DNA from: a virus | IMG/VR virus record: IMGVR_UViG_3300031951_001010 | Span: 1-27,223 of that record | Strand: one strand, 5' to 3' | Length of the DNA stretch: 27,223 nucleotides | Shown: piece by piece, positions 2,130 to 25,912 of the stretch | Position numbering within the stretch: position 1 is the stretch's first letter | Layout: every line of letters begins with the position of its first letter | Notes under the pieces: generated by a model | The model's input: the letters and a program-made list of their open reading frames with translations, nothing else | Told to the model about the DNA's origin: nothing | The model's database searches: none | Made by a program: the position numbers and the translations under genes

Positions 2130-2651
2130 ATGACCTGCATAGCAGCAATAATAAAAGACGGTAAATCTTATATGGCTGGAGAACGAGCAGCCACTGATGA
2201 CCACATGATGTCTAGATTAAATAATCCTAAGATATGGGAAGTTGGAGAATATCTTATGGGGTTTTGTGGAACATTTGAAGGTCAAATCATACAGGCAAAC
2301 TTTATTCCGCCAAAAGTAGAAGGCAACCTGGATAAATTTATGCGTGGTAAATTTATTAAAGCAATCAATGAATTCTATAAAGAATATGATATTCCAGGAG
2401 AAAAAGAATCAGAACTAACTTTGCTCATCTGTATTAGAGGTAGGATGTATGAGCACGAAGCAGCAACGCTATCAATGATCTCCTATGACATGAACTATCA
2501 TGCTATAGGATCTGGATCAGCCTACGCAATGGGTTCTTTACATGCCACCCAAAACTATAAGGATCCAAAGCGTAGGTTGACTCAGGCACTAGATGCTGCA
2601 ATTAATTATAGCCCTAACTGCCTATACCCTATTGACATACTTACAAAGTAG
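2130..2651 (+). CDS. Proteasome beta / HslV-like Ntn hydrolase
   Basis: A 173-residue protein that begins MTCIAAIIKDG. If the initiator Met is removed, Thr becomes residue 1, as in proteasome beta subunits and HslV, whose N-terminal Thr is the nucleophile. Counting from that Thr, Glu falls at 17 and Lys at 33, the spacing of the Thr1/Asp-or-Glu17/Lys33 catalytic set. Length is close to HslV (about 175). A Gly-rich stretch (GSGSAYAMGSL) near the end matches the region that shapes the active site in this fold. It may act as a phage peptidase or modify the host proteasome; actinobacteria are among the few bacteria with 20S proteasomes. It has its own strong promoter. Confidence 0.75.
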   Translation: MTCIAAIIKDGKSYMAGERAATDDHMMSRLNNPKIWEVGEYLMGFCGTFEGQIIQANFIPPKVEGNLDKFMRGKFIKAINEFYKEYDIPGEKESELTLLICIRGRMYEHEAATLSMISYDMNYHAIGSGSAYAMGSLHATQNYKDPKRRLTQALDAAINYSPNCLYPIDILTK

Positions 2652-7686: not shown

Positions 7687-8037
7687 ATGCACGTCGCAGT
7701 TCAAGGAACTAACAGTTTCGATGACTACACTGTTTTTTTAAGAGCAATGGGAGTTGCTATGTCTGGAATGAAGAATGATGATAAAGATTTCTTTGTTTAT
7801 TCTATAGGTCCAGCAAAAGTTAATGGTTTTGTTGCTGAATTCTGTAATCTCTCAGAAAGAGGGATGAAGGGTCGTGGCAAGAAAATTAAATACTATAAGG
7901 TACCTGCACAGTGGGTTGAAGAAAATATTGCATCCTTTGACTACTTTGCATTTCTTAGCAAACCAAACGAAGGTGGATCAAAGTTGCTTGGTATTGCAGA
8001 ACTTAATAATGTCGAAGTCGGCATTTTCCGTTACTAA
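7687..8037 (+). CDS. Phage protein with possible SLOG-like (DUF2493-like) start
   Basis: A 116-residue protein. The start MHVAVQGTNSFDDYTVFLRAM resembles the beta-strand, turn and helix of small nucleotide-binding SLOG/DUF2493-type domains (VxVxGSRxFxDYxxF), and the alternation of strands and helices fits a Rossmann-like fold. SERGMKGRGKKIKYY and NVEVGIFRY complete it. Known SLOG proteins bind nucleotide-derived ligands; no ligand can be named here. It begins 4 bases after the preceding stop, with no clear ribosome binding site. Confidence 0.6.
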   Translation: MHVAVQGTNSFDDYTVFLRAMGVAMSGMKNDDKDFFVYSIGPAKVNGFVAEFCNLSERGMKGRGKKIKYYKVPAQWVEENIASFDYFAFLSKPNEGGSKLLGIAELNNVEVGIFRY

Positions 8038-17577: not shown

Positions 17578-17605
17578 AATACACTATTTTACAACCAATT
17601 TTATT

Positions 17606-17705
17606 TAAAAATTAAGAAGGGCCACCAAGACAGAAAGGGGATCTCAGTGGCCCAAAGCGCCCTAATTAGAAAGGGCGACCTCTTCGCCAGAAAGGGGGGC
17701 GAAGT
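17606..17705 (-). ncRNA. Predicted small RNA with three anti-Shine-Dalgarno hairpins
   Basis: Read on the minus strand from about 17705. Hairpin 1: CTTCGCC (17704-17698) with GGCGAAG (17688-17682), loop CCCCTTTCT. Hairpin 2: CGCCCT (17677-17672) with AGGGCG (17663-17658), with CCCTTTCTAATT running from stem into loop. Hairpin 3: GGGCCAC (17653-17647) with GTGGCCC (17625-17619), 21-base loop with ATCCCCTTTCTGT, then TTCTTAATTTTT as a terminator. Each copy of CCTTTCT equals the 3' tail of 16S rRNA and complements the AGAAAGG sites of early genes. C-rich loops recall the actinobacterial 6C RNA, which has two such hairpins; common origin is not shown. The transcript start fits the perfect promoter upstream. 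Confidence 0.72.
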
Positions 17706-17712
17706 ATATATA

Positions 17713-17741
17713 ATTATACACGAAACATATTGCTTTGTCAA
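17713..17741 (-). promoter_or_regulatory. Perfect consensus promoter of the small RNA
   Basis: Minus strand: TTGACA at 17736-17741, 17-base spacer, TATAAT at 17713-17718. The -35 box contains the TGA stop of the zinc-ribbon gene. Start is predicted at 17706 or 17705, one base before hairpin 1. Confidence 0.88.
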
Positions 17742-17920
17742 TCATGGATGTCTAAAGGTGTCGGGGCAGTGATAAAACATCCGCAATCCCTACACTCTGC
17801 ATCATCAAGCAGGTAGCTAGAAATCTCATATGTATCAGGATCAAACTCTACAGTTACCCTAAGTAGCATAGAGCCACAGCAGGGACAAATCGGAGTTGGA
17901 ATACCTCTTAGATCTACCAT
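17738..17920 (-). CDS. Zinc-ribbon protein, leaderless, upstream of the small RNA
   Basis: A 60-residue protein with two CxxC knuckles: CPCCG (residues 12-16) and CRDCG (43-47), typical of a small zinc ribbon that can bind nucleic acid or protein. The middle is acidic. A perfect consensus promoter ends 6 bases before the ATG, so it should be expressed strongly from a leaderless mRNA. Its stop codon lies in the -35 box of the small-RNA promoter, so protein and RNA form a compact cassette with the same promoter quality. Possible partner or regulator of the RNA by position only. Confidence 0.75.
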   Translation of the reverse strand: MVDLRGIPTPICPCCGSMLLRVTVEFDPDTYEISSYLLDDAECRDCGCFITAPTPLDIHD

Positions 17921-24512: not shown

Positions 24513-24707
24513 TTAGATATGCCCACAGCCACAGTTACAACAGCTATTACATCTACCCTCGTATCTTTCACACATTAGATCTATGAGGTCCTCTTCACCG
24601 CAGGTACTACAAGTAAACTCAGATGTTTCATCTATACATCTAAAACAAATCTCTTGATTATCTACATTTACTGTCTGTACCCCATAGGCATTACAAATGT
24701 CACACAT
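24513..24707 (-). CDS. Cys-rich zinc-binding protein
   Basis: A 64-residue protein with about 13 Cys in CxxC pairs (MCDICNAYG, CFRCID, CSTCGEED, CNSCCNCGCGHI), enough for two or three zinc sites as in small RING-like or zinc-finger proteins. Its SD AGAAAGGGG is unusual in this window, and the leader bases 24710-24722 are fully complementary, over 13 bases, to hairpin 3 of the small RNA at 17606-17705. It has its own promoter (24734-24762). Possibly a DNA- or protein-binding early regulator. Confidence 0.68.
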   Translation of the reverse strand: MCDICNAYGVQTVNVDNQEICFRCIDETSEFTCSTCGEEDLIDLMCERYEGRCNSCCNCGCGHI

Positions 24708-24733
24708 AAATCCCCTTTCTGTGAGATATATTT

Positions 24734-24762: not shown

Positions 24763-24858
24763 GTCTGACGTAATAAAAATTTGGGAAAAATCTAAGATTA
24801 TCGTAATTCAAATGTGGTAAAAATCACACCCCGCCGGGGCCCCATTTATGCAGAAAGC

Positions 24859-24879
24859 AGGCAGTTTATACTCATGCCT
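24859..24879 (-). other. Conserved intergenic hairpin, copy 1
   Basis: AGGCA/TGCCT stem with loop TGAGTATAAAC on the minus strand, 17 bases after the DUF932 stop. Related hairpins lie after the genes ending at 26946 and 27183. It is followed by AAATGGGGCCCC. Possible terminator or processing element. Confidence 0.5.
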
Positions 24880-24895
24880 AGGAGTTGCGATTTAT

Positions 24896-25912
24896 TTATG
24901 CAATCGCTAACACATTTTGCACTGTTTGCAATATGCGATTCTTTTCTGCAGTAATAGAAGCATCAAAGCCAGAAGCAGCAGCAAGCACTGATTCATTATT
25001 ACCACCACGAGCAGAGCGATGCCAATCTAATCTCTCAGTGAGAGCATTCATTGCACCCCATGCAGTGTTAGCAATCATGCCATTGAACTCACCCGTATAA
25101 ATATCATTGATGAGGTCAATCTTATTTTGCCACTTAGTGAGAGCAATCTTCTTCTCACCTTCTGGCTTAGGATATACCGCAAGCACAATATCATTGAATT
25201 GTTGCGCTGTGATTTCTTTCTCAATCATGGTCTTAGCCATGAGATCAAAAGCATCCATGTATTTATTAGCAAGCCCAAGAGTCTCACGAGCAATCTGAAC
25301 ACGACCTGTTGCAGATTGTGTGTGACGAATCTTGAACGATTGTTTGACGGCATTCTTGCCACGCTTAGAGCCTAGAGCAAGATTGAGAGTATTGGCGCAT
25401 ACAACACGAACGGGCGTGATTGATGCCTGAATAGCAATAGACCCGTCATGCGAGGTATTGATGAGAAGATAAGTCTTTACCTTATCGGATACACCGCTAG
25501 GGTCTAGCACTGTCTCACGCTCAAGAGCAAGAGAGCCAAATACTACACGCCCACCCTTGATTGAGCCAGCCGTTTCCCAACGACCGCCACCATCAAGAAT
25601 GTTATCTCCGAATGCAAATAAATCTTCATTCTGCAATGGAACATAACGCTCACCAACAACACCTAGAACATCTGTCTGGTTATTGTTAGTAGGATTAGTG
25701 CGAACAACATATTGATAAGACTTATCTGATGTAAGAGTATTAGGAATCTCAACATCAACAAGGCGAACATTCCAGTTGTTTAGATTAGCAGCAGCCAACA
25801 TTTCTGCTGTATTCTTTTCCTCCATGAATACGGTTCCAAGACCATGCCATGCAGGTTCACGGAAAGATGCAAAAGATGCAGCCCCGTTTTGTGTTTCTAA
25901 CTCATGAGCCAT
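24896..25912 (-). CDS. DUF932 phage/plasmid-like protein
   Basis: A 338-residue protein of the DUF932 family found in phages, plasmids and conjugative elements. Recognisable parts are PAWHGLGTVF near the start, the block VLGVVGERYVPLQNEDLFAF, TPVRVVCANTLNLAL (about 165-180), and a C-terminal helical part with EFNGMIANTAWGAMNALTE. Members are expressed early and abundant, but the biochemical role is not established. The SD CTAGAAAGGA and a TTGATA-17-TAAACT promoter precede it. Single-gene unit with a following hairpin. Confidence 0.88.
   Translation of the reverse strand: MAHELETQNGAASFASFREPAWHGLGTVFMEEKNTAEMLAAANLNNWNVRLVDVEIPNTLTSDKSYQYVVRTNPTNNNQTDVLGVVGERYVPLQNEDLFAFGDNILDGGGRWETAGSIKGGRVVFGSLALERETVLDPSGVSDKVKTYLLINTSHDGSIAIQASITPVRVVCANTLNLALGSKRGKNAVKQSFKIRHTQSATGRVQIARETLGLANKYMDAFDLMAKTMIEKEITAQQFNDIVLAVYPKPEGEKKIALTKWQNKIDLINDIYTGEFNGMIANTAWGAMNALTERLDWHRSARGGNNESVLAAASGFDASITAEKNRILQTVQNVLAIA

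Follow-up and report, generated by a model that had tools for sequence, protein, structure and literature searches.

The locus and its setting

The window, by which is meant the whole 27,223-base stretch analysed here (a virus record), is probably a 27-kb portion of a phage genome of approximately 100 kb, of which 73% or so would lie outside it; the longest contigs among the IMG/VR relatives reach approximately 119 kb. On its minus strand lie a predicted small RNA, preceded by a consensus promoter, and a block of genes whose leaders share an AGAAAGG Shine-Dalgarno (SD) sequence, among them a DUF932 gene and the gene of a short Cys-rich protein (Table 1). Because the window contains a WhiB-like gene, and because the best-scoring matches of its DUF932 protein among GenBank phages are to Streptomyces phages, the host appears to be actinobacterial, and the phage is probably one of lake actinobacteria. 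A host search with two phage proteins against genome contigs gave no match, and no close homologues were recovered with the exact DNA pattern of hairpin 1, with the Cys-rich protein or among GenBank phages; in Streptomyces phage NootNoot, whose DUF932 protein is 52% identical, neither the pseudoknot described below nor a comparable anti-SD hairpin was present in the 22 kb scanned. Elsewhere in the window, a small protein (2130-2651, plus strand) adjoining a tRNA cluster displays a weak Pfam Proteasome match (E 0.0011) that falls below the curated cut-off.

The small RNA, the ends of which were placed from its promoter and U-rich tail, corresponds to the best combination of promoter and structure within the window, with a fold of -43.8 kcal/mol, its z being -6.1 where the plus strand reaches -3.6. 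The 9-nt loops of hairpins 1 and 3 are identical, and represent a slightly altered copy of the 3' tail of 16S rRNA (the anti-SD), which ends in CCUCCUUUCU. An Rfam scan gave no match to the small RNA at gathering score, and a c-di-GMP-I-GGC riboswitch candidate on the plus strand of the same locus was rejected, as it scored 21 bits where the gathering score is 59. A further perfect TTGACA-17-TATAAT promoter is found at 17955-17927 on the minus strand, about 215 bases upstream of that of the small RNA; because it ends 7 bases before the ATG of 17738-17920, the mRNA of that frame may be leaderless.

Table 1. Features of the small RNA locus and of the predicted target region
Feature	Position	Strand	Basis
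Promoter of the small RNA, TTGACA-17-TATAAT, 12/12 consensus	17713..17741	-	consensus scan
Predicted small RNA, about 105 nt, three hairpins, U-rich end	17600..17706	-	fold and promoter
Hairpin 1, loop CCCCUUUCU at 17697-17689	17682..17704	-	predicted fold
Hairpin 2, its CCCUUUCU partly in the stem	17655..17681	-	predicted fold
Hairpin 3, 13-bp stem, loop CCCCUUUCU at 17640-17632, then UUCUUAAUUUUU (terminator-like)	17619..17653	-	predicted fold
Small RNA segment AUCCCCUUUCUGU, 13 nt complementary to the leader	17630..17642	-	
Leader segment ACAGAAAGGGGAU, including the entire SD AGAAAGGGG (24720-24712)	24710..24722	-	
Gene predicted to be the target; encodes a Cys-rich protein of 64 aa without a Pfam match	24513..24707	-	
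Terminator-like hairpin between DUF932 and the target leader	24828..24840	-	
Candidate H-type pseudoknot, about 27 nt, after the DUF932 stop	24859..24885	-	

A 13-base match between the RNA and one leader

The earlier note had described a perfect 13-base match between hairpin 3 and the leader of the Cys-rich gene, and this was borne out: the window contains exactly two copies of ACAGAAAGGGGAT, at 17630-17642 on the plus strand (which reads ATCCCCTTTCTGT on the minus strand) and at 24710-24722 on the minus strand, where it spans the whole SD of the frame that starts at 24707. The same note's remark that the GGGG of this SD sets it apart also held, with other leaders of the block (at 25912, 24430, 23574 and 27113) reading AGAAAGGA; three copies of AGAAAGGGG are found in the record, corresponding to the two RNA loops and this one leader. 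In the predicted fold of hairpin 3, only nine of the 13 RNA bases (17640-17632) stay single-stranded, and seven of the 13 matched bases (AGAAAGG) are common to the other SDs of the block.

In a scan of the window, 24722-24710 was the only exact complement to the small RNA of at least 12 nt outside the RNA's own locus. The leader ranked first of 57, with a hairpin 3 duplex of -21.4, followed by a leader at 7874 (-16.9, its start being doubtful) and then by one at -13.3; no other site beyond the RNA locus equalled it, the next being one in coding sequence at -17.8 and the next on the same strand standing at -14.8.

Dinucleotide shuffles gave an expectation of 0.55 matches to ACAGAAAGGGGAT when two mismatches were allowed; because the loops copy the anti-SD, however, a fair null must hold the SD fixed. 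Much of the match is built in, since loops that nearly copy the 16S tail will pair over 7 nt with every AGAAAGG SD. Among the other AGAAAGG leaders of the window and its relatives, none of 186 reaches 12 nt with hairpin 3 and one reaches 11, while an independent-sites model with the AGAAAGG SD given yields 0.0004 per leader, or about 0.003 for the eight such leaders in the window. The shorter AGAAAGGGG, taken by itself, has a chance of about 1% per leader.

Calculated pairing energies set this leader apart as well. Its pairing with the loop (-15.1 kcal/mol) exceeds that with the 16S tail (-12.5 kcal/mol) because of its GGGG, whereas the DUF932 leader pairs more strongly with 16S (-10.2 kcal/mol) than with the loop (-8.8 kcal/mol), and most AGAAAGGA leaders pair more weakly with the loop than with 16S. 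Opening costs about 0.1 kcal/mol or less for the loops and 1.1 for the target 9-mer; for the full 13-bp duplex (about -21), it amounts to about 2.8 kcal/mol for hairpin 3 and 3.3 for the target.

A covarying RNA family in related phages

In four sister contigs whose DUF932 proteins are 98% identical to that of the window (L004-L007), a homologous RNA is found with paired changes in its stems and the loop UCCCUUUCU. The leader that follows DUF932 reads CTCACAGAAAGGG in these contigs, against CTCACAGAAAGGGG in the window, so that the sister lineage retains both the leader core CTCACAGAAAGGG and the loop core CCCUUUCUGU, each one G/C shorter; that leader belongs to a different small gene, directly after which lies a partial homologue of the Cys-rich frame. 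A wider family (L009, L011, L012, L015, L018, L020, L023 and L164-L182) displays the loops UCCCUUUCUG, ACCCUUUCUG or ACCUUUCUG on one or two hairpins and has a pseudoknot candidate on the 3' side, often with a further hairpin on the 5' side. The window and these relatives share a common arrangement, in which hairpins bearing CCUUUCU loops come after a promoter and are encoded on the same strand as the AGAAAGG block. Across 14 aligned sequences, 9 of 19 base pairs display changes on both sides and 97% of cells pair, as compared to 35-51% in slid controls, and the loops are fixed while the stems covary. A covariance model built without the window gives it 21.8 bits (E 0.0014), a score that pseudoknot-driven matches elsewhere also attain. 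CCUUUCU hairpins beside a pseudoknot in L008, L013, L016, L021, L022 and L110, which lie near other genes and have no shown promoter, were not counted as part of the family.

The 3' end of the small RNA in most relatives is the same candidate pseudoknot element as that found after the DUF932 stop, although the RNAs of the window and of L004 lack it. The element, which follows the pattern N4-C(C/U)GAGCA(U/A/C)-N4'-(U)AAAACUGCUC, gave 337 matches in the fetched loci against one in reversed sequence, with covariation in both stems, and was absent from Rfam matches. Further copies occur in the window at about 26939 and 27173 (minus strand) and in many relatives (for example, L023:4846, 5377, 5665, 6542 and 12837), often just 3' of the stop codons of block genes; it may serve as a 3' end, a processing site or a protein site. 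A second conserved, structured RNA-like region is found behind the MGARC gene in many relatives (…GGGUCCUCCCAC…AAUAAGGG…GGAGCGCAGG…CUUGCGCUCCCCCAACAUCUUUGAUACAAUG), at G003 54361 (+), L009:5577, L011:11994, L014:14106, L018:13738, L071:14003 and others.

The leaders of the AGAAAGG block

In three relatives of approximately 100 kb, AGAAAGG leaders are concentrated in a single block of 8-14 kb (9 of 10, 13 of 13 and 15 of 15), and the small RNA lies within a few kb of that block, which is taken to be 'early' by position and gene type alone. In most RNA-bearing relatives, between one and five leaders carry AGAAAGGG, a sequence that is altogether absent from a relative of 101 kb for which no copy of the RNA was recovered. 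The base 5' of AGAAAGG, which the G of the loop can read and the 16S end cannot, is C in 48% of the leaders of RNA-bearing phages, as compared to 28% in close relatives for which the RNA was not recovered and 4% in more distant phages, while a G after AGAAAGG is present in 22%, 4% and 7%, respectively; relatedness among the phages exaggerates these differences, and in some ortholog groups the leader bases display no shift.

The earlier note's reading of this RNA and leader is supported in part, by the promoter, the structure, the covarying relatives and the top rank, but not as an exclusive pairing of one RNA with one target: across 13 genomes, foreign leaders fit an RNA as well as its own do (p 0.56 for the best match and 0.05 for the mean), a result that lends no support to strict co-evolution between an RNA and the leaders of the same phage. 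Compensatory CCUUUCG loops, predicted for relatives with CGAAAGGA leaders, were not found. Leaderless mRNAs were also considered as a class that would escape such an RNA, and -10 boxes at gene starts showed no clear enrichment. Several leaders in L054, L061, L067 and L078 are of a GAAAGGAAGUCAAAAUGACUUC or GAAAGGAAUUCAAAUGAAUUC type, with the start codon inside a small inverted repeat, the sequence of which differs from gene to gene.

Proposed function and alternative explanations

On balance, we lean towards the view that the RNA masks the SDs of its own phage's mRNAs and lowers their translation. The phage would produce the approximately 105-nt RNA from its own consensus promoter, and the hairpin loops, as slightly altered copies of the 16S 3' tail with a preference for CAGAAAGGG(G), would pair with the SDs of mRNAs from the nearby AGAAAGG block in loop duplexes of 7-9 bp, which an opening of hairpin 3 could extend to 13 bp at the leader of 24513-24707; that pairing would exclude ribosomes and thereby reduce translation. 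Transcription, pairing in the cell, repression and timing are what we infer from the features described above. Of the visible targets, the Cys-rich gene would be the strongest, because loop pairing exceeds 16S pairing at its leader, and the chances that it is in fact regulated appear, from sequence, to be about evenly balanced. A more ambitious and less likely version is that the block is written in an SD dialect of its own, CAGAAAGG, to which some genes add further G, and that a 16S mimic with several loops shuts down translation of the block and spares the remaining genome, with the Cys-rich gene responding first.

Several other explanations account for part of these observations. The RNA might act mainly on host mRNAs, masking host SDs and dampening host translation, such that the phage leader match is a by-product of a shared SD consensus; the closeness of the loops to a general anti-SD and the lack of strict co-evolution with the phage's own leaders are in keeping with this, but the extra loop C and G suit phage leaders (CAGAAAGGG) better than a plain copy of 16S would, and the RNA adjoins the AGAAAGG block; we regard such a role as unlikely. 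It is somewhat more doubtful that the RNA is real and its long leader match a matter of chance superimposed on SD resemblance. While seven of the 13 bases are indeed common to all SDs of the block, and AGAAAGGGG is expected at about 1% per leader, the estimate of about 0.003 for a 13-nt match among the eight AGAAAGG leaders of the window argues against coincidence, as does the parallel 3-C/3-G pair in the L004 lineage.

The constancy of the loops, which far exceeds that of the stems and is typical of protein sites, would also be expected if CCUUUCU were bound by a protein or ribosome factor (as a decoy for a holder of the 16S 3' end) and mRNA pairing were incidental; this leaves the top-ranked leader match and the shifts to C and G around AGAAAGG unexplained, and is judged rather improbable. 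Least credible, and very improbable, is an active plus strand whose hairpins display AGAAAGGG as ribosome decoys: that strand also folds, at the z of -3.6 given above, but the perfect promoter and U-rich tail are found on the minus strand only, the minus strand folds better, and 10 of 14 relatives retain a G-U pair that, read on the opposite strand, would become A-C. The masking of phage SDs by the small RNA, if it occurs, suggests that the phage may switch off some of its own genes.

Relation to known SD-masking RNAs

How lytic phages turn off their early genes when no repressor protein is involved is often an open question, and to our knowledge few phage RNAs are known to target mRNAs of their own phage. 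The family described here, supported by covariation and found in lake phages, places a near copy of the tail with which the ribosome reads mRNA close to the sole block that uses the matching start signal; it would, if the reading is true, constitute a switch at the level of translation, and it can be searched for in other metagenomic phages.

In the predicted fold, C-rich unpaired loops are complementary to an SD, a feature of the functional class of sRNAs that mask SDs with C-rich loops. In Listeria monocytogenes, LhrC was shown experimentally to prevent translation of lapB, the G-rich SD region of which it binds through three redundant CU-rich UCCC sites; two of these sites lie in a hairpin loop and the terminator loop (PMC4132741). 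The RNA described here resembles LhrC in presenting C-rich or CU-rich sites in loops aimed at an SD region, but no sequence relation was seen, the small RNA having no Rfam match; LhrC is chromosomal, multicopy, stress-induced and from Firmicutes, whereas this RNA is phage-borne and carries a fuller copy of the 16S tail. The 6C RNA (B11) of mycobacteria and other Actinobacteria pairs with G-rich sites near start codons through two C-rich loops, either of which is sufficient, and B11 was shown experimentally to act through its C-rich sites (PMC10470900). The C-rich loops and actinobacterial setting are shared, but 6C loops contain a run of at least six C where those here read CCCCUUUCU, and the 6C Rfam model gave no match at gathering score, nor at E up to 10 for 17580-17760. 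The c4 RNA of phages P1 and P7, which binds the ribosome-binding region of a phage mRNA through complementary parts that are probably in loops (review, PMC12197685), is likewise phage-encoded and directed at a phage ribosome-binding region; c4, however, is dedicated to ant, whereas the RNA described here, at a distance of 7 kb, is preceded by a promoter of its own and bears a copy of the anti-SD that suits many leaders. These comparisons are most consistent with a small RNA that would work like LhrC, B11 and c4, yet is a member of none of these families by the tests made: the principle of SD masking is known from LhrC and 6C/B11, while the phage family and its block-wide use look to be new.
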